The notes under the pieces were generated by a model. That model saw only the letters and a list, made by a program, of their open reading frames with translations, was not told where the DNA came from and did not search any database. The translations under genes were made by a program, and so were the position numbers. This document shows, piece by piece, positions 8,733 through 41,314 of a DNA stretch of 41,314 nucleotides (position 1 is the first letter of the stretch; each line of letters begins with the position of its first letter). Location: NCBI GenBank assembly GCA_002104905.1, contig MCFE01000735.1:1-41314 (forward strand), read 5' to 3'. This DNA is from Basidiobolus meristosporus CBS 931.73. Taxonomy: Eukaryota > Basidiobolomycota > Basidiobolomycetes > Basidiobolales > Basidiobolaceae.

Positions 8733-11700
8733 ATGAGCTTGTTGACACGAGGCCCGAGAGTCAGAGGCTTCTGGCTACTGGTGCTGGCAGTATACTCGCT
8801 GATCGCCGGTACTGGGGCTGGTGATGTAACGGTTCGAAACACTGGCCTTACAAATTTACCAACCAAACTATTCTATTTCGAGGATTCGGGGGTAAGATAC
8901 GGCGTTACCGAGGCCCGCTGTACGTACGTAGCCCCGAAGTAAGCTAACCAAACCTTTCCGCCCAATAACAGGTGATATTGTACCTGGACACTACCTCCAG
9001 AACAGTCCTTCGTTCCGACAACGAAGGCGGCACTTGGTCCAAAGTATCCAACGTACCCGACAGCATCGCAACAGATATGTACAGTCATCCATATGACAAA
9101 CAGACGGTACAGTACTCTCTTCGTCGCGCAGCTCACACCTTCGCCACCCACTCATCCTTTTCACGCTTTCCCTACACCACAGGCCATAATCCTAACTGAA
9201 GACACCACCCATTACATTACGCATGATAGAGGAAGCACATGGACCTCATTTAAAACCCCGCTTCAGCCCTCCTTGAGTGGGCAGATTTTGAGTTTCCACG
9301 CCGAGAGGGGAGGGTACATCCTCTTTACCGGCTCCCGGTGTGAAGACGATGGATACCATCGCAAACAGCTATGTACGGACGAGGTAAGGATGTCTGGCAC
9401 CCAAAGGCACCCGAGCGGATAGAGGCTAACTGGAGGGTTGTTCAGACTTACTATACTAGAGATGCTTTCGCCACGGAGCCATCGCTCCTGAAGAAGAATG
9501 TGGAGAAATGTATCTGGGGGAGATCTACGCCATACTTTCAAAACGTTCCCGAGCAGCTGACGCTGTGTTTGGAGTACCTCGAGGGTTCCACCAGTACCTT
9601 AAGATTGGTCCAAAGCGAAGATTATTTCCGCAGCTTCACGGTGGTTCAGTTCAACGAGGAGGCGAGGGACATGGGTAGCGTGGTCGGCCTGTCCATCGTG
9701 GATAAGTTTCTCGTAGCCGCACTGGTAGATGCGAACCATCCTTCTCGTCGACGACCATGTGTTAACCTTCATCTCCTTACAGAAACACAAGAACTCCGAG
9801 GACATGAGTTTGTTTATTACCCAGGACGCGGTAGAGTGGGATATGGTAAGGGACCCGGACGTGGGAATCCAGGTGGATCCCATCCAACTAATCAACGCTT
9901 CTTTAGGCAAATCTTCCTATTCCGGATGGACTAAAACAGAACGTAAGTGGATGCTCCCCGCATCTCCATCTTGCTTCATGCATCCTTACTTATTACTGCA
10001 TCCAGGCCTACACCCTGCTGGAATCCTCCTCACATACACTTGTGATCGATGTTGTCACCTCGTCCAGCGCCAAGTTCGGCAACATGTTCGTCTCGAACTC
10101 GAACGGTAGCTTCTACACCAACTCGCTGGAGTACACCAACCGCAACGATAGAGGTATTGTTGACTACGAAAGGGTTCAAGGGGTGGAAGGCATTGTTCTA
10201 TCCAACATTGTAACCAATTGGAAGGCGGTCGATAGAAGCCAAGGGTACGCCGAGAAGGCCATCCAATCCAAGATCTCCTTTGATAACGGTAAGTCTAAGG
10301 CATCCTTCCTGGCCTGTTGCTCGAGGGTTCTGAACGAAATTCCTTCCAGGCGGCCATTGGCGCTACTTGAAACCCCCGAAGAGTGACTCTGAAGGGAACA
10401 GCTACCGGTGCAGTGGCGACGATATTGTGAGTACTTCATGGATAGGTTGATCGATCCTCGATGAGGCGTAGCTAACCAGCCATATCACAGCCAGGAAATT
10501 GTAACCTCCACCTCCACTCAGTCTCCAGACCTCACAACTACGGTAAAGTGTATTCCTCAGTAGGCGCGCCCGGGATCTTAATGGGTGTTGGAAATGTGGG
10601 CAAGGCTCTGCTGGCGTATGAGCAGGGGGACACTTTCTTGAGTGACGACGGTGGATTGACTTGGAGAGAGGTGGCCAAGGGCGCACACAAGTATGAGATG
10701 GGCGACACCGGCTCTCTGCTTGTCATGGTTGACGACGAGGCCTTCACCGACAAGGTGCTGTACAGCTCCAACCGGGGGAAGACATGGTAAGTGGTCGGAT
10801 AGCGAGAGTTTATTGGGGAATAGTGACCAACATCCATCGTACAGGAAAGAGCAAAGCCTGGGTGTCAGCGTTCGGGCGAAAATGCTAACCACCGACCCGG
10901 AGTCCACCACGTCCAGCTTTCTTCTAATCGCCACCGTCGCCAAAGACCAAGCCTCTGACTTTCCCCACGTCCTGTTCCAGCTTGACTTCGACAACCTCCT
11001 CGAACGGAAATGTGTGTTCGACGAGGACTCCGGAAACGGGGATTTCGAGAAATGGATCGCTCGGAATCTCGAGGACGGGCCTGACTGTATCATGGGCCAC
11101 ACCACCGCCTTCTGGAGAAGAAAGGCTGAGGCCCAATGCTACGTGGGGGAGAAATACAAGGATCCAGTGGTGATCGCCGAGAGTTGTCCATGCGAGGAGG
11201 AGGATTTCGAGTGCGACTACAACTTTGTTCGGGACGCTGAGGGGCGTTGTATCCAAGCGGGCTCAGAAAAGATCCCCCGAGGCCAGTGCAAGAACGCGGG
11301 TGACACATACCTGGCCTCATCCGGGTATCGAAAGATTCCTGGCAACACATGCGACCCGGAAAAGGGAAAGCGACTGGATGAGCCTGTAGAGAAGGAATGC
11401 CCCTCAAGCGGAAACTCTCCCGCTCCCGATTCCCCCAGCGGAGCAATCAGCCACCGCTCCACTGTACTCACCTCCCTGGTCGACGGGTACTTCTACTTCT
11501 CTGACTCTCCCGTAGTGCTGATCCGCACCAGAAATGGAGAAATCTGGAGAAGTCCAGATGAAGGTGCAAATTGGAAGCAGGTGCTAAAGGATAGCCCGGC
11601 GGTGATGTTGCTCATCATGCATGAGTGGGATAACCACCGCGCCTATTTCTTCACTGAAGACGGCAAGATGTTGGCCACCACGGACCGTGGGGAGACATTT

Positions 11701-14700
11701 AGCGAGGTTTCTCTTCCGTTAGCACCCAATACACTAGGGTTATCCCTTCTCGATTTCCATCCGGATGAACCAGACTGGCTGCTCTTCATCGGGAGCAATG
11801 AATGCCCGAACTGTCACAGCGAGGTGTTCTTCACCAAAAACCATGGTCGAGACTGGTCAGCGATCGAAACCTTCGCCCACAAATGTATCTTCGGGAAAAG
11901 CCCCAAGTTCGCCAACGTCCCCCAGGAAAGTATCTTCTGCTCCTCATTCAAGAACAAAGACCCCAAGGCGGACCAGATGGTGATGGAGCGCAACGGAGAT
12001 CCATTGCAACTCATTTTCATCGATGGAAAGAGGCGAAAGGTGATGCTAGAGCCCATGCTGGAGTATGCCATGCTGGAGGAATTCCTCTTGGTCGCCACCG
12101 AGGGGGATCAAGGGTTGACTCTGCAGGTGTCCACCGATGGAGAGAGCTTCTCCGAGACGGTCTTCCCTCCGAACACCCGTGTGAATAAGAATGCGTTTAC
12201 CGTTTTGCAGTCGAGCACAGGCTCCGTATTCCTCGATGTCTTCCAATCGACCGTACGGGACGCGGAATATGGAACGCTGTACGTCTCGAACTCCGACGGG
12301 AAGTACTACAGCCAGGTTCTGAAGAACACCAACCGAAACAACAATGGGGTGGTCGATTTCGAAAAGATGAAGGGGGTCGACGGAATCATCTTGGCCAACG
12401 AGGTGGCCAACGCCGAAAAGCTAGGCAGTCACTTCGAGCCTCAAAAGAAGATCCGCACCGTCATTTCTCGCGATGACGGAAGAACTTGGAAGCCCTTACA
12501 GCCGCCCAAGGTGGATGCCTCCAACAACCCAATCACGTGCAATGACCCGGATGAGTGCCAATTGCACCTCCACAGCAAGACCGACATCCTCTCCGAGTCG
12601 ATCTTCAGTGTGCCCTCGGCCGCTGGGTTGATGATGGGAGTGGGCAATGTTGGACCGTACCTGCTGCCTTACGAACAAGGAAACACCTACATCACACGTG
12701 ATGCCGGCCTGACCTGGAAAGAGATCCGACGTGGGGAGAGTCTTTACGAATTTGGGGATTCCGGAGGGCTTTTGGTGGTGGTGGATGACGAAAAGGAGAC
12801 CGATAAGCTGATGTACAGCTGGAATTACGGCCAATCCTGGGAAACCTACACCTTCTCCGACGAGGCGATCCGCGTATCCTCCATCACTACCGAGCCCAAG
12901 TCGACCAGCTTGAAATTCTTGATCTTCGGGATCACCGCCACTACGGCGCAAAGATTCGCCCAGCAGATCATCATCTCCGTGGACTTCTCAACCCTGGAGC
13001 CCCGTAAATGCGTCCTGGACGAGTCCAGCTCGAGTAAGAATGACTTCGAGCTCTGGAACCCCGGAGGGGAAGCCAAGTGCTTGCTTGGCCAGGAGACCGA
13101 GCATTGGCGCCGGAAGGAAGACCGTCTATGCTATCTTGGGGATGTGTACGGCGAACCCAAGGTCCAGCAAAGCAGCTGTGAGTGCACCGAACTAGACTAC
13201 CAGTGTGACTACAATTTCTGGCGGAATAGCGAGGGGAAGTGTGAGCTGTATGGGACCGATCCTGACAGGCCGCATAATTGCCCTGCTGGAGAGACATACG
13301 AGGGCAGCTCCGGCTACACGAAGATCCCAACCAGCAAGTGCAAGGGCGGGCTTCAGAAGGACACCAAGGTCACCAGGAAATGCAGCGAGTTGTCCCAAGT
13401 CCGCTCCGTCGTCCATCAATTCGACAGCGAGGTGGTGGATTACCAATACTTCAAGAAGTCGGATCACATACTGATGCTGACCAAGGACCAGAAGGCGTGG
13501 CTTAGTTATGATGAAGGGTACTCATGGGAGGAGTTGATCAAAGACGCCGACGTTGGCATTAGTGATATCTACATGCACCCCTACTCCGAGGATGTGGTAA
13601 GTAACACCGGCAACAACTCGTGAAGCTCGTCTAACCCCCTTTTCGTAGGCTTTCTTCATTACCGGTGGAAAGAAACACTACTACACTGCCGATGAAGGCC
13701 GCACGGTGAGTTACCTCCAAGTCCCCGCACCCCCCAACGGCAAGGCATTCCCTGTTCTCAGCTTCCACCCACGCCATCCGGATTGGCTCATTTACATGGG
13801 AGAGCGCGACTGCGATTCGCTCATTTCGCTTCATTGCCGCTCAGAGGCATATTACAGTCTCAACGGGGGCACCACCTGGACATCTCTCCGTGCGGATGTG
13901 AGAGTATGCCAGTGGGCGACCACCGATAAATTCACCAAGGCGCCGGAGACTCGCATCTTCTGTGAGCAGTACCCCGAGGGAACCAACCACCGGGCCTCAT
14001 CGCAAACATTGGCCACCCTCGTCAGAACTGACGACTACTTCAAGAACACGCAAGTGGCCGTCCAGAACACCGTAGGATATGCGATCTTCGAGGAGTTCAT
14101 GGTCGTGTCCCAGGTCAACTCTGCCGAGACCGGGATGCTGCTTCATGTGAGTGTTGATGGAGAGAACTTTGCCTTGGCCCAGTTCCCCGGGGACAGCTCG
14201 AGCATTCATCCTGCTTACACCATTCTGGAATCCAACACCCACTCCGTGTTCCTTCATGCCAGCGACAATGCCCAGTCCAAGGCTGAGTACGGGACCATTT
14301 TCAATTCGAACGCGAATGGCACCTACTTCACCACCTCCATCGACCACGTCAACCGTGACGAGAGGGGCCTGGTGGATTTCGAGAAGATGGCCGGGATCGA
14401 TGGCGTTGCCATGGTGAACCAAGTCATCAACCCGAACTCCGGGGAGAAGAAGAAGACCCGTTCTTTGATCACCCATGACAACGGTCGCAGCTGGAACCTG
14501 CTCACACCCCCCGAGACCGACTTCCACGGCTCCAAATACAAGTGTCAGGGAGACGAATGTTCCTTGCACATCCACAGCTACACTGAACGCCAGGACCCCC
14601 AAAATCTCTTCAGCTCTTCCTCTGCTGTCGGCTTGATGATGGCTGTGGGCAATGTCGGGGACCATCTAACCGATTATACCGACGGAGACACTTTCCTCTC

Positions 14701-15694
14701 TCGGGACGCTGGTAAGACATGGAAGGAGATCCGCAAGGAGGCCCATATGTACGAGTTTGGTGATCACGGGGCTATCCTCATGCTTGCTAATGATGAAGAA
14801 CCAACGGATCACATTTCCTACTCTCTGGACGAAGGCAAGTCCTTCGTAGACTACCGGTTCACCGAGGCGAACCGCAAGATCCGACTCAGCACCATAGCCA
14901 TCGAGCCGCAATCCACCAGCCGGAAATTCCTGCTCTTCGGGAAGACGGACAACTACTTCTCGAAACAGGTGGTGGTGCAGGTCGACTTCAACGGGTTGAA
15001 CATGGATAAATGCAACCTCGAGACCGGCAAGGGCGGGGACTTCGAGTTGTGGGACCCTGCGGACGGGAAGTGCCTATTCGGACGAGAGGTCAACTACTAC
15101 CGTAGGTTACCCGACAAGATGTGCTTCGTCGGCGACAAGTTCAAGAACCCCCAGGTGACCGTACGGAATTGCACCTGCACCGAAGCCGACTTCGAGTGTG
15201 ACTACAACTTCATACGCACCAACGGCAAGTGCGTTTTGGCGGAAGGGGCGCGCCCCCTCGCCACCAGCTGTTCGGGCGGTGCCAAATATTACCAAGTGTC
15301 CAGTGGCTATCGTAAAATGCCTATATCTAGTTGCGAAGGGGGGGAAAACCTAGCCCGGCCATTGGAGTACCGCTGCCCTAATTCGGGGCTCAGCGGCGGT
15401 GCCATCGCCGCCTTGGTCCTGGTCCCACTGTTGGTGGTGTTATGTGTTGGTTTTATTCTATTGAGAAGATACAGGACACTCCCAACCATCCGTGTCCCTG
15501 CTGGCATCGGCAGACTCTTCACCCAGCTCCCACTCCGCCTACCCCACCTCCCCATCCCAGCCTTTATCTCGAGACTATTTTCGGGGCTTCCTTTCCTTGG
15601 CCACCGCCGCTCTGGCTACACACAGGTCCAAAGCGAGGAGCCGTTCGATGTGCTTCTGGATGACTACGACTCGGATGACGACATGGATGTTTAA
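8733..15694 (+). CDS. VPS10: Vps10/sortilin-type sorting receptor with three Vps10 units
   Basis: Eleven exons: 8733-8891, 8972-9106, 9183-9383, 9446-9724, 9783-9860, 9907-9942, 10006-10288, 10350-10426, 10491-10786, 10845-13596 and 13649-15694. They give a 2113-residue protein. It has a signal peptide ([14 protein letters not shown]), then three consecutive units. Each has BNR/Asp-box strands ([30 protein letters not shown]) and closes with its own 10CC module ([15 protein letters not shown]; SSGYRKIP-like). The units end near residues 702, 1361 and 2010. One membrane span ([18 protein letters not shown]) and a 79-residue tail follow, with a YTQV sorting signal and an acidic dileucine end ([16 protein letters not shown]). 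Known role: cargo receptor carrying soluble hydrolases from the Golgi to the vacuole, recycled by retromer. Yeast Vps10 has two units. Exon 6 is only 36 bases. AATAAA is at 15815-15820. Confidence 0.95.
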
Positions 15695-29642: not shown

Positions 29643-31170
29643 CAAGCTGTCACTCTCTGCAATGTCTACTACTGCTATTACTGGAATTTTTCCCTCTGCT
29701 GAAAAGTTGGATGGATCTAACTACCAAGTGTGGAATGTGAAGATGAAGATGCTGCTACAAGAAAGAGGCCTTTGTGATATTGTCATGGGAGAAGAATGCC
29801 CTCCTAAAAATGTGGGAGAGGAAGCCTTAAAGTAGCAGAAGAAAGAACAAAGTGCCTTTAACTGCAATTGCCTTAATGTTAAGGACAAATTGCTAATTCA
29901 ATGCTCAAGAGCAAAAATGGCAAAGAATGCCTGGAAAGCATTAGAAGATACCTACAAGTCATGTTCAGCTGCCAAGAAGATGTATCTGGGACAAAAATTC
30001 TTTACTACAAAGATGCTGCCAGGAGAAGAAATGAAAAATCTAATTAACAGAATTACCCTGCTGGTAGATGAAATGGAATTGGTGGGCATACCAACTACTG
30101 ATGAGGATGTGATAGTTACCATCCTGAATATCCTGACAGACAAGTTTCAGGGCCTTGTATCAGCCCTAGAGTCTAGAACTGAAGATTTGACATTAAACTA
30201 TGTATATAGAAGGCTCCTGGATGAAGAATTAAGGAAATCAAGCACCAATAAGAAGGATGAAGAAAATGCTTTAATAAGCAATGATAACCAACAAAGGAGG
30301 TACCCAAGACCCTACAAAGGCAACAGCAACCTATTTTGCAACTACTGCAAAAGGAAAGGACACACATCAGACCGGTGCTTCAAAAAAAGATAGTCAGTGG
30401 AAAAAGTATGAATATGGAAATGTGGCAACAACTGAAGATAGACTATTCATATCTGCACTTAATATGACCACAAACAAGGATTATCAGACATGGTATATTG
30501 ACTCTGGAGCATTTCAACACTTTACACACCAAAAAGAACTTTTTACCCAGTATCAAGAAATTCCAATTAAGAAGGTTTTCATGGATGACAATAGGACACT
30601 TGATGCAGTAGGAGAAGGAACTATCCACGTATGCCTAGGATGCAGTGAAGGAAGCCATACACAGACCTTTAAAGAAGGACTCTATGTACCAGAAATAGTC
30701 AAGAACCTACTATTTGTAAGCAAGGCCACAGCAGAAGGACTCAGTTTCAGCTTTGACAATTCCGGATGCAAGATCACAAATCAAAATGGTGCACATATTG
30801 CTTTGGGTATCAGAGATCAGAATCCTTACAAGTTGACTTATATTCCATCATATTTGGAAGCAAATATAAGTAACTAAAATGAAGAAACCCCAATGCTTTA
30901 GCACAGGAGATTTGGGCACATCAATTTTGATTATTTGCGCAAAATGATCAAAGATCAGCGAATATCTGGAGTAAAAATTGATCCCCCAGCTAATTTGGAG
31001 CACTGTGAAGCCTGCATATATGGGAAACAATCCAGACAACCAATCACAAGCTCTGGGTTAATCAAAACTAAGAGAAAATTAGATCAAATTCACTCAGATC
31101 TGTGTGGACCCATGCAAAAATTATACTTAGGCGGGGAGAAATATTTGATTACCTTTATTGATGATAATAC
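29635..31170 (+). pseudogene. copia gag-pol, element 1, broken and interrupted
   Basis: Gag starts MSPKLSLSAMSTTAIT in the primer site. The UBN2-type gag (LDGSNYQVWNVKMKMLLQ) carries a stop at 29833-29835 where element 2 has Tyr. A CCHC knuckle (CNYCKRKGHTSDRCFKK) ends at a stop at 30391-30393, and the frame shifts by one base there. In the new frame come the protease (TWYIDSGAFQHF, catalytic DSG intact), the GAG-pre-integrase region (HRRFGHINFDYLRKM), and the start of integrase (HSDLCGPM), stopping at FIDDN where element 2 is inserted. There is no RT or RNase H and no 3' LTR. Confidence 0.88.
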
Positions 31171-31519
31171 TGTAGTAAAAATTCATATTTCCACCTAAAT
31201 ATTCACCTAACTTAGTCACTTAGATCATCACCTTCAAATCCTTGAGAATACTGACCAAATTCCTTGTCGGCATTTACTTAGAATATTTTCACCAAAATGC
31301 CAGGTACCCAGAACATGAAAATTCTCAAAGTTGTCCAAACAGCCCCAAAATTTGCACACATGTTCTTGGGATCTTTCTTAACCTATTCTATGTGTTTGTA
31401 ATGCCAAGACCAGGTAAAAGCATAAATACTACTTTCACATTCAATAAATCATTGAGTGAAAACCACATAATCTACTTGTTCTCCCAATCACTTCCAATAT
31501 CTCCAAGACTCTTACAACA
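31171..31519 (+). repeat. copia 5' LTR, element 2 (nested in element 1)
   Basis: 349 bases, very similar to the LTR at 29282, starting TGTAGTAA and ending TTACAACA. It lies inside the integrase coding region of element 1, so element 2 is the younger insertion. The preceding AATAC is the expected target-site copy, but its partner is lost with the 3' end. Confidence 0.92.
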
Positions 31520-31531
31520 GGTTATGAGCCC
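31520..31531 (+). promoter_or_regulatory. primer binding site, element 2
   Basis: GGTTATGAGCCC, identical to the site in element 1 and again containing the gag ATG (31524). Confidence 0.75.
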
Positions 31532-33400
31532 CAAGCTGTCACTCTCTGCAATGTCTACTACTGCTATTACTGGAATTTTTCCCTCTGCTGAAAAGTTAGA
31601 TGGCTCTAACTACCAAGTGTGGAAGGTGAAGATGAAGATGCTGCTACAAGAAATAGGCCTTTGGGATATTGTCATGGGAGAAGAATGCCCTCCTAAAAAC
31701 GTGGGAGAGGAAGCCTTAAAGTACCAGAAGAAAGAACAAAGTGCCTTTAACTGCATTTGCCTTAATGTCAAGGACAAATTGCTAATTCAATGCTCAAGAG
31801 CAAAAACGGCAAAGAATGCCTGGAAGGCATTAGAAGACACCTACAAATCATGTTCAGCTGCTACAAAAATGTATCTGAGACAAAAATTCTTTACTACAAA
31901 GATGCTGCCAGGAGAAGTAATGAAAAATCTAATTAACAGAATTACCCTGCTGGTAGATGAGATGGAATCTGTGGGCATACCAACTACTGATGAGGATGTG
32001 ATAGTTACCATCCTGAATAGCCTGACAGACAAGTCTCAGGGCCTTGTATCAGCCCTAGAGTCCAGAACTCAAGATTTGACCTTAAATTACGTATATGGAA
32101 GGCTCCTGGATGAAGAATTAAGAAAATCAAGCGCCAATAAGAAGGAAGAAGAAAATGCTTTAATAAGCAATGATAACCAGCAAAGGAGGTACCCAAGACC
32201 CTACAAAGGCAACAGCAACCTATTTTGCAACTACTGCAAAAGGAAAGGACACACATCAGACCAGTGTTTCAAAAAGAGAGATTATCAGCAAAAGAAGCCT
32301 GAATATGGAAATGCTGCAACAACTGAAGATAGACTATTCATATCTGCACTAAATATGACCACAAACAAGGATTCTCAGATGTGATATATTTACTCTGGAG
32401 CTTCTCAACACTTTACACACCAAAATGAACTTTTTACCCAATATCAAGAAAATCCAATTAAGAAGGTTTTCATGGGTGACAATAGAACACTTGATGCAGT
32501 GGGAGAAGGAACTATTCAAGTAAACCTTAGAGGCAGTGAAGGAAGCCATACACTGACCTTTAAAGAAGTACTCTATGTACCAGAAATAGCCAAGAACCTA
32601 CTCTCTGTAAGCAAGGCCACAGCAGAAGGACTCAGTTTCAGTTTTGACAATTCTGGATGCAGGATCACTGATCAAAATGGTGCTCATATTGCTTTGGGCA
32701 TCAGAGATCAAAATCTATACAAGTTGACTTATATTCCATCATATCTGGAAGCCAATTTAAGTAACTTAAATGCAGAAACACCAATGCTTTGGCACAGGAG
32801 ATTTGGACACATCAATTTTGATTATTTGCGAAAAATGATCCAAGATCAGCAAATTTCTGGAGTGAAAATTGATCCCCCAGCTAATTAGGAGCACTGTGAA
32901 GCCTGCATATATGGGAAACAAGCCAGACAACCGTTCAAGAGCTCTGGGTTAATCAAAACTAAGAAAAAATTAGATCTAATTCACTCAGATCTGTGTGGAC
33001 CTATGCAAAATTTATCCTTAGGCAGGATGAAGTATTTAATCACTTTTATTGATGATTATACAAGATACACATGGGTCTACTTCATGGAGAGAAAGGAAGA
33101 AGCTCTGTCTAAGTTCAGGGAGTTTAAAGCCATGGTGGAGAGAGAAACCGGTGAAAAAATCAAGAAAATACACTCTGACAATGGTGGAGAATATACCTCA
33201 AAACTCTTCATCCACTTCTGCAAAATTCATGGGATAAAGCAAGAGACTACTGTACCATACTCCCCACAGCAAAATGGAGTAGCAGAACAAGCTAACAGAT
33301 CAATAATTGATATGGCAAGATCTATGATCCGTGATCAAAAATTATCCTGTGATTTTTGGGCGGAATCAGTTGCCACTGCTGTATATCTTAAAAATAGGAG
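31524..33400 (+). pseudogene. copia gag-pol, element 2, two stops, 3' truncated
   Basis: One frame throughout, broken only by stops at 32382-32384 and 32886-32888. The gag (LDGSNYQVWKVKMKMLLQ) and CCHC knuckle (CNYCKRKGHTSDQCF) are intact. The protease reads YIYSGASQHF: the catalytic Asp is Tyr and a stop precedes it. GAG-pre-integrase is LWHRRFGHINFDYLRK. The integrase core has HSDLCGPM, HSDNGGEY and PQQNGVAE, the three acidic residues. Homology stops near AVYLKNR at about 33400; RT, RNase H and the 3' LTR are missing. The frame also stays open upstream through the LTR to 31242. Confidence 0.9.
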
Positions 33401-34985: not shown

Positions 34986-35358
34986 TTAGGGGGAGGAAAG
35001 TCACCAAGTAGTGAAATCCTTATTTACTTATGACAAGTATCTAAAGAAGCCAAGTTAATCTGAAGTTATTCCTAGAAAGCTAGGTCTGAGAGATATCTTC
35101 CTGGTAAGCCAGGTCTGAGAGTTGAGAAGCTGAGTGGTACTATATTTCCTAGTTAGCTAGGTCTGAGAGAGGTTTCCTGGAAAGCCTGGCTTGAGAAGTG
35201 AGAATCTGAATATATCTGAGCTAACTTATACTGGTTTGCGGTAGCTGAATTGTGACCGGAATGGCCAGTAGACTGGGGGAACTGAGATGAATTTCTGGGC
35301 AATCACTGGCAATATTTACTGGGCAAATCTGGCCAATTAGCATTTCAAGGATTTCAGC
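34986..35358 (-). mobile_element. LINE 3' fragment L4, 5' truncated
   Basis: The plus strand begins TTAGGGGGAGGAAAGTCACCAA, then TTATTT and AAAGAAGCC, like the 3' UTRs of L1-L3. The rest is an untranslatable region with hairpin repeats and no LINE ORF. It ends at the TTAGGGGGG of L3. Confidence 0.65.
35071..35189. repeat. four hairpin repeats, CCTRG-NNAG-CYAGG
   Basis: Copies at 35071-35084 (CCTAGAAAGCTAGG), 35100-35113 (CCTGGTAAGCCAGG), 35148-35161 (CCTAGTTAGCTAGG) and 35176-35189 (CCTGGAAAGCCTGG), mostly followed by TCTGAGAG. Spacing 29/48/28 makes a 77-base double repeat. The A-T and G-C pair at the same stem position alternate between copies. Confidence 0.75.
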
Positions 35359-36135
35359 TTAGGGGGGAGGGAAAGTCACCAAGTTGGTGAAATCTTTATT
35401 TGAGTTAAGAACTGATCTAAGTACAAATAAAGAAGCCAATCAAGAGGTCTAGAACCTCTCTAATAAGTAGTCTAATTTATGTTTTGTTTCATCTCTGATG
35501 TTTGTTTCAATAAAGTAAAGATCATCAGGGGTAAATATAAAATTCAAGGGTTTTGGGGGAAGTACAAATTGTAGATGTTTCTGATCAATATAATCCAAGT
35601 CTGGAACACAGCCTGGGATTAGGTGTAGTAGGAAAGGTGTGTGAACTTGTAAGTAGCTCTGCCACATAGATCTTAGATGGTCCTGAGCCAGTAGTCTTGG
35701 CTTCTCAGCTTTTTGAAGTTTTGAAGTAAGCTCTGTTACTACAGCAGAGCCAACCAGGGTGTGCCAGCAAGAAGATTTCAGGGAGGAGTTAGATTTAAGC
35801 CATTGTTTGATGGAGGGGTTGTGTGATTTCTGAAGTTTGACTAGGAAGGAAGCACAGAGATAGACCATTTGGATTTGGCATGGGTAGAACCAAAAGGCTC
35901 CATTAGTTGCATGGATATAGGGAGATACTGGAAGATAAGGTACCAAGGATTTGATACACTGATGGAGAAATTTATCCAGGTGGTGAAGCTCACTGGAGGT
36001 TAGGGGTATAATGTGGAGACCAAATTCAAGTACTGGCAGTACATACTGCTTCAGAAGTATAGGGATCTTTGGAATTGGAGTGTCTGGAGTGACTACTACC
36101 AGAAGCTTTTTGAGAGCCTGTTGGGCAAGATGGGC
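35359..36135 (-). mobile_element. LINE fragment L3 (divergent family member), 5' truncated
   Basis: It begins TTAGGGGGGAGGGAAAGTCACC on the plus strand. An open frame ends at 35449 and covers the C-terminal end of ORF2: LAQQALKKLL, LKQYVLPVLEFGLHIIPLTSS, CIKSLVPYLPVSPY, SCWHTLVG, MWQSYLQVHTPF. These align with the same blocks in L1 but with many changes, so L3 is a separate subfamily. The frame remains open into L2's 3' end (to 36219). The 5' break near 36135 abuts the TAGGGGG of L2. Confidence 0.8.
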
Positions 36136-36504
36136 TAGGGGGAGACAGTCACCAACAGGTGAAATCTTTATTTCAGTAGAAATAAAGAAGCCAGCGCTAC
36201 TGTTGTAGCTTTGATACAAGAGTGTGTAGCTGAGGGGAATTTGTAGGTAAGTTCATAAAAGTGATGATAGCTCTTCAGTGCTCAAGACACTGTTCAGTGG
36301 GAAGGGGGGTAGCAAGAGAGGTAAGAATGACTTGTGAACAACATTAATGAGGGGAATGTGATAAGGATTGATATTCATCATAAACGGAATGTGCTGCTGC
36401 AGATATTGCTGCCAAAGTGCTGTCAAGTACTTCAGGTAGGCCAGCTTGGGTATTTCTGACTGCAGAATATAGTAAACAAACTTCTTGACTTCAGGATCTC
36501 CAAG
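36136..36504 (-). mobile_element. LINE fragment L2, 5' truncated, nearly identical to L1
   Basis: Plus strand begins CTAGGGGGAGACAGTCACC. It matches the last ~370 bases of L1 with few differences and stops at CTTCAGGATCTCCAAG, exactly where L1 continues further. The next bases are TTAGGGG of L1. Confidence 0.9.
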
Positions 36505-36568
36505 TTAGGGGGGGAGACAGTCACCAACAGGTGAAATCTTTATTTCAGTTGAAACAAAGAAGCCAGCG

Positions 36569-39337
36569 CTACTGTTGTAGCTTTGATACAAGAGTGTGTA
36601 GCTGAGGGGAGTTTGTAGGTACGTTAATAAGAAGTGATGATAGTTCTTCAGTGCTCAAGACACTGTTCAGTGGGAAGGGGGGTAGCAAGAGAGGTAAGAA
36701 TGACTTGTGAACAACATTAATGAGGGGAATGTGATAAGGATTGATATTCATCATAAAGGGAGTGTGCTGCTGCAGATATTGCTGCCAAAGGTCTGTCAAG
36801 TACTTCAGGTAGGCCAGCTTGGGTTTTTCTGACTGCAGAATAAATTCTGCAAACTTCTTGACTTCAGGATCTCCAAGTATAGTTCTCCAGCAGGAGCCAG
36901 GTGTTGTGTGGTGTGTTCTCTTCCAGGCCTTAATCAGTGGGTTGTTGCAGTGGTGAAGTCTGAGATATAATCTGGTTCTAAGGTAGAGAAGTCTGATCTT
37001 ATAGGGCATAAACCCAAAAGCACCAAGAATAGCATGTCTGTAGGGGCATTCAGGCAAATGAGGCACCAAGGAGGTAATGCACCATACTGCAAACTTGTCA
37101 AGCTTAGTGCAGTCTCTAGAAGTAAGAGAGAGAAGTGGTAAGCCAAATTCCAGTACAGGGAAGACAAACTGCTTGAGTAGAAGAAGGCAGCTGGGAGCTG
37201 AAGTTGTAGGAGGAGTAACAGCCAGTAGCTTGTGGAGTGCCTGTCTTGCCAGGATAATTCTCTTCTTCAGGTGTGCTCCAGAGTCTAGTCCAGTAGGAAG
37301 GAAAGGAAAGCCAAGATATGTAGCAGAAACCTGAGCAGGTAGAGTGGAGTTCTCTAAGGTGATGGGAGAGCCCAAAGGTACTGTCTTTGCAATGGAAAGC
37401 TGGAGATTATTCTTCTGCAGATACTGGTGGATGGTCTGGGAGTCTTGTTGCACATTGGAGGAGGATATTCTGATGTCATCAGCAAAGAGAGTAACCAGGC
37501 AGTCAGCTGAGAGTCTTGGGAAATCATTCAGGAAGATGGCAAACAGTATAGGACCAAGCACAGAGCCTTGAACCACTCCATTAGGAACTGAGAACACAGC
37601 TGATTGCTCACTTGGGTGCAGAATTCTTGCTTGTGGATCCAGAAACAGGGACCTGACAAGGAGGGTGAGAGAGGTACTGGAGAAGCATTGCAACTTGGAC
37701 CAAAGCAGATTTCTGTCAACTGAATCAAAGGCCTTAGTAATATCAAACAGAACTGAGGGATACTTGCACTGGAGAGAGTGATCTTGGCTAAGTATGACTG
37801 CATATTCCAAGGAGAGGCCAGGAACAAAGCCAAACTGTGCAGGATGAAACTTGAGGGAGTCAGAGTAGAGCTCCTGAGCAAGCAGAAGCTCAAACACCTT
37901 TCTGCAGGTGGGCAGCAGAGATATTGGCCTGTAGGAGCTAGGATCCAGGTGCTTTCCTTTACCCTTGTACAGTGGCAGAACATTTGCAAAGGACCATTCC
38001 TCAGGAGTAGAAAGCTGGGCTGAGCATTGCTGAAACAGTGGAAGCAGAAGTGCAGACATGGCCTTGGTACTAGTCTTCAGAAGCTCATAGGAGATTGTGT
38101 CCACACCTGGAGCAGTAGAGTTGGGAAGCCTCTTGAGCACATTATGGATTCTCCTTTGATCAAGTGCAAGTGGGATGGGCAGAGTCTTGAAGTCAGGATG
38201 AAAGCCAGGAGTTGAGTACTGCTTTGTAGAGAAGAAGATGTTAGCCAGCTGTTCTGTTGAAGGTAACTTCCTGGAAGAGGGCCTCATTGCCCTGTAGAGT
38301 CTTGATACTGTTCTTGTTATAGAGTTGGAAGATTGCAGAGGCAAGGAACTCATAATATGATCCCAGAGCTGAGTATGCAGAGTGTGGTGAATTGCCTTGG
38401 AGTGGTGTATTGCTATCAGGAGGAGTTTCTCTGTTTTTGGGTTAGGGAAACTCAGGTAGCTTTGTTGCAGGGCTGAAACAATGGATTCCCATTTTCTTGA
38501 GGTAACAGCAGTAGTCTTGCATGGCAGTGAGAGGGAGGCAGACACCAGAATCAGATGCTTCACAAAGAGCCAGGCATAGTTGAGATCATCTGGCAGAGAA
38601 AGTAGCAAACTGGCAAGCTTCAAGTAGTTCCCAAAGTCTTTCTTCTGATTCTTGGTAGCTTTGTGGGTGAGCACAGTAAGTTTTGGCAGCTTCTTCTTCA
38701 CAACTGGTTGCATAGAAAGGGACCAGGCTGGGTGGTCAGAGGCTCTCAAGGATCCTAGCTCAGCTCCAGAGAATTGCTTAACTTCATCCACAAAGTAGAG
38801 GGCAGCAGCAGAAGGGCAGATCCAGTCAACACATCTTTTCTCAGATTGAGCACCTAGTGCTAGCAGATGGCTTTCTCTCAGGAAGTTCAGTAGGAATGTA
38901 GACCTTGGCTTCATTCTTGCAGTCAGAGTAGTCTTGTTCTCAGGATGGGGAATGTTGAGATCTCCAAGCAAGATAATAGGTGTTGATATAGATTGCTGGT
39001 ATTGCTGAACTTTCTGGCATATAACTTGCACTTCCTGAAGGGCAAGACTTGGAGGCAGATAGCAGAGCACCAGACTGATAGTTGGCAACTGGAGAGCAGC
39101 ACAGTAAGGGGAGTAAAGAGGAACACAGAGCTGAGGAGTATTAATGGTAGAAGAGATGAAGCAGATAGAGGAGGTATTCTTTGTTCTAGGAGTAGAAAAG
39201 CAATATAGATTAGTCAAAAGTATAGAGGGTAGCTGAACATCAATCAAACACAGGAGGGAAAATCTTGAAAGAAGTCTCTCTAGAGTTGGTCTTGATGGCT
39301 GTATGCTGTTGCAGTTAAGCAACAGAACTTCAGGTAG
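36569..39337 (-). CDS. LINE ORF2: endonuclease and reverse transcriptase
   Basis: About 922 residues follow the ORF1 stop in the same frame. The N-terminus is an APE-type endonuclease: LLLNCNSIQPSRPTLERLL, then CYLPPS, ILLGDLNIPH and ASDHPAW (GDxN and SDH present). Where the family has Gln-Glu after the first strands, this protein has VQLPS, so the catalytic Glu seems lost. The reverse transcriptase has PLYKGKG, SYRPISLLPT, LFDITKAFDSV, GVVQGSVLGPILF and LFADDIRIS (FADD at 37475-37486), all intact. No RNase H or C-terminal zinc knuckle was seen. There is no ATG before Met at about 38914, which is downstream of GDLN, so translation probably does not begin independently. It would prime new DNA synthesis from the element's RNA at target ends. 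Confidence 0.9.
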   Translation of the reverse strand, partial: LPEVLLLNCNSIQPSRPTLERLLSRFSLLCLIDVQLPSILLTNLYCFSTPRTKNTSSICFISSTINTPQLCVPLYSPYCAALQLPTISLVLCYLPPSLALQEVQVICQKVQQYQQSISTPIILLGDLNIPHPENKTTLTARMKPRSTFLLNFLRESHLLALGAQSEKRCVDWICPSAAALYFVDEVKQFSGAELGSLRASDHPAWSLSMQPVVKKKLPKLTVLTHKATKNQKKDFGNYLKLASLLLSLPDDLNYAWLFVKHLILVSASLSLPCKTTAVTSRKWESIVSALQQSYLSFPNPKTEKLLLIAIHHSKAIHHTLHTQLWDHIMSSLPLQSSNSITRTVSRLYRAMRPSSRKLPSTEQLANIFFSTKQYSTPGFHPDFKTLPIPLALDQRRIHNVLKRLPNSTAPGVDTISYELLKTSTKAMSALLLPLFQQCSAQLSTPEEWSFANVLPLYKGKGKHLDPSSYRPISLLPTCRKVFELLLAQELYSDSLKFHPAQFGFVPGLSLEYAVILSQDHSLQCKYPSVLFDITKAFDSVDRNLLWSKLQCFSSTSLTLLVRSLFLDPQARILHPSEQSAVFSVPNGVVQGSVLGPILFAIFLNDFPRLSADCLVTLFADDIRISSSNVQQDSQTIHQYLQKNNLQLSIAKTVPLGSPITLENSTLPAQVSATYLGFPFLPTGLDSGAHLKKRIILARQALHKLLAVTPPTTSAPSCLLLLKQFVFPVLEFGLPLLSLTSRDCTKLDKFAVWCITSLVPHLPECPYRHAILGAFGFMPYKIRLLYLRTRLYLRLHHCNNPLIKAWKRTHHTTPGSCWRTILGDPEVKKFAEFILQSEKPKLAYLKYLTDLWQQYLQQHTPFMMNINPYHIPLINVVHKSFLPLLLPPFPLNSVLSTEELSSLLINVPTNSPQLHTLVSKLQQ

Positions 39338-39340
39338 TCA
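39335..39340 (-). promoter_or_regulatory. candidate stop-codon readthrough site UGA CUA
   Basis: Minus strand TCT GCC TGA CTA CCT GAA. The TGA (39340-39338) ends ORF1; ORF2 continues in the same frame from CTA. UGA followed by CUA is an established leaky context. Confidence 0.55.
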
Positions 39341-40846
39341 GGCAGAGGTTGTAGCTTCTTCAGAGGCAGCATTGACAATGTGACCTGCAGAGTCCCAGAG
39401 CTCTTCAAATGGTGCATCACTTAAGTCAGCAAGGAGGGAAATGGCATGGTTCTTGAGGAAGTATGCCACATCATAGGAGGGGGCTTGTCTCTTGATGGCA
39501 GCAAAGAAAGACAGAATGGCAACATGGGCTGGAGGCTTGTTGAACAGTAGAGAGTCAGAGGATTCAGATTCTTCAGGCACTATCTTGAAGTCAGTTTTCA
39601 GCCAGTTAAGGTTCTTCTCCACAAAGGCAACAAATGGGTCAGCAATGTTTTGGTCTAGGATAACCTCCAGAATCTTCCCTTTTCTCCAGGCCAGGTTGAC
39701 AATTCTTGAGTGCTGAATATTGCATGCCTTGAGTGCTTTCCTGATGTTGGAAATGGGAGTCCAGGGAACTTGCTTCAAGTACACCACAGTCCAGGTAGAA
39801 GCTGGTGGTAGGTTTGCTGGGGGCTTGTAAGTCCTTCTGTGTGGCAATGGAGCTGCAGTAGTCAGATTGGAGTCCACATTCTCAGTAGAGGGTTTTCTTG
39901 ATGTGTCTTGCTGAATGGTACTGGAGCTGGATGTGTTGATAATTCTTGCTAGAACCTTGCCTGCATAAGTCTGAGGTATAGCTGAGGTGACTGTAGAGGT
40001 GGTGGCAGCTGGTGCAGGTGGAGAGGCAGAAACTGAAGCAGGAACTGAGGTCACCTGGGAGAAGGCAGTAGAAGCAGGTTTTCTGGGAGGAACAGAGTTC
40101 ACTATCCAGTTGTTCTGTAAAACACTGGAGTAGCTTTTCTGTGGAACAGGATCTTGCTCTTGAACAGGAACAGAAGCAGCAGGCTGGGGCTGAGCAGTAG
40201 TGGTAAGGCAGTGGCACTCCAAGGAAGCTTTTTGCAAGGCATCTCTGGCAGTTTTCAGGGCAGTATTGGCTTCATTCTTAAGCTTCTTGCATTGGGCATC
40301 CAGTCTCTTGTTTTCAATAGTCAGGGCAGTATTGGCAGCCTCTAAATCAGCAATTCTCTTCTCAATTGCAAGGAATCTCTGAAGAAATGCATCAGTAGAA
40401 GTGCTGGCATCTGGGAGCGCAGTGGCAGGAATAGAGTCCATTGACAGTGGGCTTCTTGGAGGCAAGGAAAGTGGACTGGCAGATTCAGGCACAAAAGGAG
40501 ATATCCTGGCAGGAGGAGAAGGAGTATCCAAGGCAGTAACAGAGGCAATTCTTGTTGGTGAAGCAGCAGCAGGGGAGGCAAGCCTGTTCAGAAACTGGGC
40601 AGGAGAGAGTGCTTGAGGAGAGGGAGTCTTCAGCTTGCCAAGCATGTCTTCCATCAGAGTGATACCAATATTCCTGGTGCATTTGCAGAGAAAAGTAAGC
40701 TTCCTGAGTCTGCCAGCTCTTCCATTCCTTCTGATAGTTCCTTTGTTTCCACAGTTGGGGCAAGAAATCTTCTTGATAGACTTGTCAAAGCAATCAAGAA
40801 CCTTCCTTTCAGGTGTAGTGGGCTCCTGTTGAGGTTTTGGTGGCAT
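39338..40846 (-). CDS. LINE ORF1: zinc-ribbon, coiled-coil protein
   Basis: 502 residues from the ATG of MPPKPQQEPTTPE; codons upstream have no ATG. Near residue 28 is a zinc-ribbon-like CPNCGNKG...FLCKC. A Ser/Pro/Ala-rich linker (LASPAAASPTRIAS...) follows. A coiled coil (FLAIEKRIADLEAANTALTI) comes next, and then a basic/low-complexity region with repeated Ser and Thr. The C-terminal 130 residues (WTVVYLKQVPWTPISNIRKA to HIVNAASEEATTSA) are globular and may bind nucleic acid. By analogy ORF1 packages the element's RNA; the zinc-ribbon at the N-terminus is unlike the usual CCHC-type ORF1. It has no in-family hit that I can name. Confidence 0.8.
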   Translation of the reverse strand: MPPKPQQEPTTPERKVLDCFDKSIKKISCPNCGNKGTIRRNGRAGRLRKLTFLCKCTRNIGITLMEDMLGKLKTPSPQALSPAQFLNRLASPAAASPTRIASVTALDTPSPPARISPFVPESASPLSLPPRSPLSMDSIPATALPDASTSTDAFLQRFLAIEKRIADLEAANTALTIENKRLDAQCKKLKNEANTALKTARDALQKASLECHCLTTTAQPQPAASVPVQEQDPVPQKSYSSVLQNNWIVNSVPPRKPASTAFSQVTSVPASVSASPPAPAATTSTVTSAIPQTYAGKVLARIINTSSSSTIQQDTSRKPSTENVDSNLTTAAPLPHRRTYKPPANLPPASTWTVVYLKQVPWTPISNIRKALKACNIQHSRIVNLAWRKGKILEVILDQNIADPFVAFVEKNLNWLKTDFKIVPEESESSDSLLFNKPPAHVAILSFFAAIKRQAPSYDVAYFLKNHAISLLADLSDAPFEELWDSAGHIVNAASEEATTSA

Positions 40847-40915
40847 ATCCAGAGTTTCAGCTTCAAATTTCAATTTTTGAGATTTTTGGGTGATTTTTGA
40901 TGGGCGGGATCAAAA

Positions 40916-40929
40916 TTAGGGTTAGGGTT
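40916..40929 (+). repeat. interstitial telomere repeat
   Basis: TTAGGGTTAGGGTT sits immediately at the 5' boundary of L1, 143 bases before the terminal tract. Confidence 0.9.
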
Positions 40930-41072
40930 GCGCGCTGTGACTGCTTTTTACGATCGCAAGGTCAGAACCTAGGAAAAAATAAAAATAGTTAGTAAAGGTG
41001 ATTTAATGGATGGATGGATGGATTCGGAGTCAGATTCAATCAAAAAATCAAATCGTTGACTAATTTAAGAGG
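40930..41072. other. unexplained spacer between two telomere tracts
   Basis: 143 bases begin GCGCGCTGTGACTG, include (TGGA)4 at 41007-41022 and end TTTAAGAGG. There is no match elsewhere in the window and no coding frame. It may be a subtelomere remnant or the 3' end of another telomere-inserted element. Confidence 0.5.
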
Positions 41073-41314
41073 TTAGGGTTAGGGTTAGGGTTAGGGTTAG
41101 GGTTAGGGTTAGGTTAGGGTTAGGGTTAGGGTTAGGGTTAGGGTTAGGGTTAGGGTTAGGGTTAGGGTTAGGGTTAGGGTTAGGGTTAGGGTTAGGGTTA
41201 GGGTTAGGGTTAGGGTTAGGGTTAGGGTTAGGGTTAGGGTTAGGGTTAGGGTTAGGGTTAGGGTTAGGGTTAGGGTTAGGGTTAGGGTTAGGGTTAGGGT
41301 TAGGGTTAGGTTAG
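41073..41314 (+). repeat. terminal telomere repeat (TTAGGG)n
   Basis: About 40 units of TTAGGG run to the end of the window, with two short TTAGG variants (near 41110 and at the very end). The G-rich strand points outward, so the right edge is a chromosome end. Confidence 0.98.

Follow-up and report, generated by a model that had tools for sequence, protein, structure and literature searches.

The outer end of contig MCFE01000735.1 of Basidiobolus meristosporus CBS 931.73 raises the question of how retroelements come to be stacked against a telomere, all facing the same way. The contig (C1019 of an assembly of 89.0 Mb in 1311 contigs) was analysed over its whole length of 41,314 nt, referred to here as the window. 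A first-pass annotation had described its end as an array of long interspersed nuclear elements (LINEs), directed toward the telomere, growing outward and ending 3' in sequence that matches TTAGGG. This core picture holds in a genome-wide sample. The mechanism is revised: the ends that receive an element appear to be bare, a short telomeric seed marks each addition, and telomerase then caps the result. The best explanation, which we consider probable, is that the reverse transcriptase (RT) of the elements primes on free 3' ends of chromosomal DNA and so adds elements that carry such a seed.

The window array consists of four elements lying head to tail on the minus strand with their 3' ends inward. 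These ends, at 34986, 35359, 36136 and 36505, each read TTA or TA followed by five to seven G. All four had been annotated as LINE 3' ends; the ends stand, but the elements come from three families and are not four copies of one LINE. The innermost, L4 (34986..35358), is a 5'-truncated copy of family D, a sequence of about 530 bp resembling a short interspersed nuclear element (SINE); it covers reference positions 3-371, and its 3' seed at the inner end is TTA plus five G. L3 (35359..36135) is a 5'-truncated family B LINE that includes the C-terminal part of open reading frame (ORF) 2 and is 96% identical over 767 bp to a copy at locus L114; the open frame P0003 (35449-36219) starts in L3 and continues into L2. 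L2 (36136..36504) is a 5'-truncated family A LINE (reference 2-370). Each of the three starts from its family's 3' end and terminates at the next junction or within about 6 nt of it, much as annotated. Likewise confirmed is the full-length state of L1 (36505..41072), a family A LINE whose 5' end at 41072 directly adjoins the terminal (TTAGGG)n cap (41073..41314, plus strand, 242 nt). Its 3' junction (36505..36514) has the seed TTA and a run of seven G, in RNA sense ...CCCCCCCUAA. The motif TTAGGGTTAGGGTT (40917..40930, plus strand), taken by the annotation for the 5' boundary of L1, lies within the 5' untranslated region and bounds no element: it is spanned by 40 long matches to 40700-41070 (98-100% identical; the window itself plus 39 more), and five other copies (L067-L071) contain it without a letter changed. 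The 5' end of L1 is formed by a monomer of about 98 bp (40971..41072, minus strand), present once to eight times across elements and arranged in tandem where repeated. These monomers, seen in L069, L070 and the window, are reminiscent of the tandem repeats of the fungal telomere element FoTeR.

Families A, B, C and D have a common 3' tail, composed of AAUAAA, a UCACC-loop-GGUGA hairpin, a C-run and UAA. In L1, AAUAAA occupies 36539..36544 and lies upstream of the hairpin (36521..36534, UCACC-UGUU-GGUGA), both on the minus strand. Loops vary among families, and the 5-bp stem is constant save for one G-U pair in L4 of the window. Among the tails, that of L1 (family A) folds significantly (z -5.4), and the others give weaker signals. 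A and B are LINEs, C carries ORF1 only and D is SINE-like. When eight C loci were checked, counting copies of at least 400 bp that gave a match, seven copies matched the C-terminal part of family A's ORF1, as carried by L1 (best E 5e-19; one copy in two frames). The possibility that C is a third LINE with an ORF2 was rejected, since a 2.5-kb C segment at the end of contig C2 resolves into 165 bp of C and a fragment of a long terminal repeat (LTR) retrotransposon, and the seven other C copies match A's ORF1 and none matches ORF2. Next to an eighth C-like tail (L018 at 327) lies sequence that matches ORF2 weakly (E 9e-4); this possibly represents a further, older family. Family D has an RNA polymerase III B box, GGTTCAAATCC, at position 59 (one mismatch), and inspection by eye suggests a possible A box as well; neither ARAGORN nor Rfam gave a tRNA match, and an intact tRNA gene was thus rejected. 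Family B has many long copies, and the four that were fetched all sit within 5 kb of a contig end. Taken as part of the explanation given above, A to D probably form a guild of non-LTR retroelements that stack at telomeres, in which C and D would use the LINE machinery in trans.

A pattern describing the tails of A, B and D has 1390 matches in the genome (1281 forward, 109 reverse; the C tail, with its longer loop, lies outside this count). The reversed pattern, used as control, has none genome-wide, which excludes chance as the source of the matches. Placement was scored for 100 of the 1390, listed in contig order across 30 contigs. Among these listed matches, orientation is uniform within each contig (30/30), in agreement with the telomere-directed orientation originally proposed. 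On the 11 contigs of at least 50 kb, none of the 32 listed matches is more than 25 kb away from the end to which it points, and 28 are within 10 kb; uniform placement would put 3.9 of the 32 within 25 kb. The end pointed to is the nearer one for 87 of the 100, the remaining 13 being on contigs of 17-20 kb. A similarity search, of which 40 of 138 candidates were scored, placed 29 of 31 copies on contigs of at least 50 kb within 25 kb of the pointed-to end; exceptions on short contigs occurred once on C284 and twice on C217. The sample is not dominated by internal copies, poly(A) or random junctions, and the exceptions on long contigs, on C558 and C726, are two of 31.

The last 10 kb of contig C2 illustrate how the layers follow one another. 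From inside to out, they comprise A 1-438, A 1-1086, three full-length D elements, 165 bp of C with a piece of an LTR retrotransposon, A 1-113, A 1-118, A 1-1003, A 1-2750 and the telomere. Each A and D piece runs from the 3' end of its family up to the next junction. After 165 bp, C gives way to the LTR element, which has RNase H and integrase domains and has lost its distal part; the cut carries an A element, and this junction is also present on C484. LTR-retrotransposon fragments follow C elements at two different positions, L062 3460-5815 and L031, the former being the one cut by the A junction. In the arrays that were resolved piece by piece (window, L061, L062, L067, L068), truncations are collinear, and once a younger element starts, the older one does not reappear farther out. 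This fits serial terminal addition, the distal growth that had been proposed, whereas nested target-primed insertion would let older elements resume.

Substrates were compared at 99 junctions: 61 lie on pieces of A, B, C, D or the window array, 38 on other sequence. Six junctions on five contigs have the next element attached to the 5' end of D, within 3 nt, and two, in L067 and L068, have it attached to that of A. Since 109 junction places on 47 contigs represent 106 distinct junctions, most of those sampled are separate events. Elements stand on truncated elements, on an LTR fragment and on non-family DNA, with a short seed, and the additions therefore seem to occur on bare or broken ends; read in this way, the order of the layers suggests that the arrays are strata of successive additions. 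Joining driven by overlap between the partners was also considered and rejected, the overlaps not exceeding the chance estimate.

Most of the array-bearing contig ends sampled, 35 out of 50, finish in a telomere tract, 50-245 nt long. The "capped" rule, set at six units, has a built-in lower bound of about 30 nt, and the 50 ends are a non-random set (24 from the ordered list, 16 from searches with the 5' region and by similarity, 10 from earlier loci; C27, C32 and C80 of the ordered list are outside it). The telomerase RNA-binding domain PF12009 was found above its curated cut-off in two pieces on C880, one of which contains an internal stop. Telomerase has not been replaced by the elements, as its TERT RNA-binding domain and TTAGGG caps are both present, and these data bear out the idea that telomerase re-caps the ends. 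In the genome as a whole, (TTAGGG)4 has 7428 + 81 matches; at 24-37 per listed end, the number of telomeric contig ends would be about 200-310, which is unusually high for an assembly of 89 Mb.

The telomeric sequence kept at inner junctions is far shorter. In a set of 102 junctions of differing sequence, 94 were parsed and eight with a variant linker were excluded. The telomeric nucleotides preceding the G-run number 0-10 at 93 of the 94 and 19 at the remaining junction; among the 93, no fewer than three (L006, L029, L053) continue upstream into degenerate telomere-like sequence. Lengths of 3 nt (TTA, 25 junctions), 7 nt (13), 9 nt (TTAGGGTTA, 11) and 1 nt (11) are the most frequent, and the seed is at most 10 nt also at junctions on non-family DNA (within the 38 of 99). 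Genome-wide there are 701 exact A-type 3' ends; two or more telomere units at 3' ends gave 114 matches, with two places counted twice, and a looser pattern for three or more units gave 13. By eye, no T-run derived from poly(A) is found at the listed junctions, so that the annotated TTAGGG-compatible 3' end, free of a visible poly(A) trace, stands. Seeds and the tracts of capped ends are clearly distinct in length (Fisher p 8e-31), indicating that an existing telomere is not what remains under a new element. Priming on an intact TTAGGG telomere, which the annotation had invoked, was consequently rejected: a long tract would persist between elements, and seeds are short. The base before the tract is C at 33/94 junctions versus 2/35 caps (p 0.0006), and the registers in which seeds and caps start differ weakly (p 0.016, or 0.044 with six irregular tracts omitted or corrected). 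Together, these two differences argue that seeds are not simply telomerase caps. Two sources of the seed were considered, the 3' end of the element's own RNA or a single round of telomerase before the element arrives; with moderate confidence, we favor a seed templated by the RNA.

Priming on free ends could proceed as follows. The RT would bind the 3' hairpin of the element RNA and prime from a free 3' end of chromosomal DNA, which could belong to a truncated older element, to the 5' end of a full-length one or to broken host or LTR sequence. Copying would run from the 3' end of the RNA outward, so that the first bases made would be the telomeric seed, about 1.5 repeats at most and commonly TTA or TTAGGGTTA, followed by the G-run. 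The template of the seed would be an RNA 3' end of the form ...CCCCCUAA(CCCUAA); RNAs ending in CCCCUAA or CCCCUAACCCUAA are the forms expected if the seed is templated. Copying would halt at the 5' end of the RNA or sooner, and the new end would either receive the next element or be capped by telomerase. More tentatively, an RNA with about 1.5 telomere repeats at its 3' end might make the LINE a second, telomerase-like healer of chromosomes beside the fungus's own telomerase, one that would fix a templated telomere seed together with itself to ends of any kind, bare or broken, and also serve the ORF1-only element and the SINE; we put this forward as an idea that may well prove wrong.

Several observations weigh against priming on free ends followed by capping. 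No telomere tract is found on 15 of the 50 array-bearing ends, nor within the 8 kb of the outward end of C80, and on C1 the outermost A piece is separated from the cap by some 50 bp, partly telomere-like and partly unrelated sequence. The copy on C558 (L005) is 97.8 kb from the end it points to, and that on C726 (L003, near 59 kb) is aimed at the far end. At 15 truncated-A junctions the overlap averages 0.7 nt, about the chance estimate, so annealing of the primer is not supported. The hairpin stem, invariant apart from one G-U pair, provides no covariation support for the fold. Endonuclease residues look maintained, so nicking may still start the reaction. Finally, the register difference between seeds and caps is slight, and it is possible that one round of telomerase adds the seed before an element arrives. 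As to the two copies on C558 and C726, they could be old ends that became internal, fusions or misassemblies.

The role left to the endonuclease is central to the first of the rival explanations, namely, that elements are inserted by target priming where the telomere tract begins on its inner side, after which the long distal tract is reattached to the 5' end of the new copy, the route proposed for TRAS/SART or MoTeR. About one repeat would then be left inside and the remainder pushed outward, in keeping with the telomere found outside the outermost element on the 35 capped ends. Largely conserved endonuclease residues agree with this scheme, and a C precedes TTA or TTAGGGTTA seeds in 21/36 cases, compatible with a nick preference. 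We still judge it unlikely, as the cut would have to fall nearly always in the first 0-10 nt irrespective of the adjoining DNA; cuts spread over 50-245 nt would leave long inner tracts, and only 13 matches with at least three units stand against the 701 A-type ends. A possibility that we rate higher, while still doubting it, is template jumping, whereby the RT passes from the 5' end of one RNA to the 3' end of the next and several elements are added at once. It is a sub-mechanism of priming on free ends and not its opposite. The three consecutive full-length D elements joined at their 5' ends are what it would produce; overlaps that do not exceed chance and a seed limited in length, as the end of a template would impose, also accord with it. 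Stepwise growth is indicated, on the other hand, by the array in which an LTR retrotransposon was inserted between additions and later cut.

Rather than by additions, most arrays could have been built from few insertions by recombination between chromosome ends. Break-induced copying between ends is described for MoTeR arrays after telomerase loss in PMC8381367. Two nearly identical A pieces of 120 bp adjoin at the C2 end, and the LTR-fragment junction is common to C2 and C484. Nonetheless, the finding of 106 distinct junctions in 109 places on 47 contigs makes recombination a very improbable source of most arrays, and two of the three shared pairs lie on full-length 5' ends, where the same junction can recur independently. 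Least probable, to the point of being negligible, is an assembly artefact in which repeats gather at contig ends for the reason that assembly breaks there. The 15 of 50 ends that lack a tract would be in line with it; the 35 that finish in telomere and an orientation uniform in 30/30 contigs, which breakage alone would not give, speak against it. Priming on free ends remains the explanation that we adopt.

By their proteins, the LINEs belong to the apurinic/apyrimidinic endonuclease (APE) type. ORF2 of L1 (36569..39337, minus strand) encodes an APE-type endonuclease, with Asp at the catalytic Glu position, and an RT. In family A, the RT matches Pfam PF00078 (E 2.6e-25) and the endonuclease PF14529 (E 5e-4, yet below its cut-off); a profile of A1, built from its family and three outside LINEs, aligns both domains to human LINE-1 ORF2p (E 6.6e-53). 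The combination that marks an APE-type LINE, an RVT_1 RT with an N-terminal exonuclease-endonuclease domain, is therefore present. Aligned catalytic positions, whose names we take to carry over from LINE-1, are retained in A, B, P0004 and P0006 except for the change of Glu to Asp; P0006 lacks the first of them, and other relatives lack that part of the endonuclease. Downstream of the RT there is no Pfam match at E 0.001, although a restriction-like endonuclease is possibly not modelled by Pfam. A and B are 46-47% identical over ORF2 (RT 59%, endonuclease 39%). Each family has closer relatives of its own in metagenomes, with P0005 at 80% for A and P0008 at 65% for B. Beyond five close relatives, match scores drop from 1282 to 147 bits, the best named matches then being insect RTs at about 30%, and on the strength of this drop the A and B LINEs are classed as an isolated lineage.

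ORF1 of L1 (39338..40846, minus strand) has a CxxC..CxC motif near its N-terminus, a coiled-coil-like stretch by eye and a weak DivIC match below cut-off. In both A and B, ORF1 and ORF2 are in one frame and separated by UGA CUA (in-frame UGA of L1 at 39338..39340, minus strand). Three B copies extend far enough to include the stop, one of them with its ORF1 shifted, and all three agree with A in the 13 nt around it, TCTGCCTGACTAC. A pattern with fixed flanks and the stop left free matches 140 A places, and TGA is the stop in 100/100 of the matches listed. UGA CUA is a leaky stop context, and programmed readthrough probably joins ORF1 to ORF2; to our knowledge, this would be an uncommon route to ORF1-ORF2 fusion in LINEs.

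Inward of the array, the window contains pieces of a copia-type LTR retrotransposon with gag and pol domains (30281-32384). Its genes include VPS10/sortilin, WD40 and subtilase genes. Two adjacent open frames at 10693-15694 both match sortilin/VPS10 domains and probably represent either a tandem pair or exons of a single gene. The best named match of VPS10 reaches 46%. In a tree of 29 rows, the VPS10 sequence of the window groups with Acaulospora, then with Rhizopus and one further row, then Phycomyces, a grouping from which the host would probably belong to Mucoromycota.

Elements that live at chromosome ends are known from several lineages, and the arrays share features with each; Zepp, TRAS/SART and Athena are among those mentioned in PMC10088271. 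Like HeT-A, TART and TAHRE of Drosophila, they are uniform head-to-tail arrays at the ends with 3' ends inward, 5' truncation and growth by terminal addition; unlike them, they coexist with a telomerase domain and a TTAGGG cap, have a C-run/UAA end without a poly(A) trace and include a SINE-like partner. Zepp of Chlorella also comprises LINE copies at chromosome ends that bear short telomere repeats, but it has poly(A), whereas here there are a telomeric seed, a common hairpin tail and four families. The TRAS and SART elements of insects (R1 clade) are APE-type telomere LINEs too, and a telomere-matching 3' end matters in SART1. Their targets are the telomere repeats themselves and they carry poly(A), while the Basidiobolus elements join each other directly, and the long tract on both sides that goes with insertion into repeats is not seen (at most 10 nt at 93/94 inner junctions). 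Athena and Coprina, endonuclease-deficient Penelope-like elements, have short telomeric stretches at their junctions, for which priming by the G-overhang has been proposed; their RT is of another family, and the L1-like RT with an endonuclease found here is not of the Penelope/TERT type. Among fungi, MoTeR, FoTeR and Cnl1 are telomere LINEs of the CRE clade, whose endonuclease is restriction-like, and 3-7 telomere repeats come after the 3' end of FoTeR (PMC12857005). Likeness extends to the tandem repeats on the 5' side of FoTeR and to the partnership of MoTeR1 and MoTeR2; the elements described here differ in their APE-type endonuclease upstream of the RT and in a seed of about 1.5 repeats at most. 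A literature search among open-licence papers found no APE-type telomere LINE from Mucoromycota. We class the arrays as a new form of telomere-targeted LINEs.

If our reading is true, telomerase and LINEs share the chromosome ends of one early-diverging fungus, in layers that can be read like strata. The arrays would then offer a natural test of LINE priming on chromosome ends, of a telomeric RNA 3' end in place of poly(A), and of the route by which small elements, ORF1-only or SINE-like, reach telomeres.

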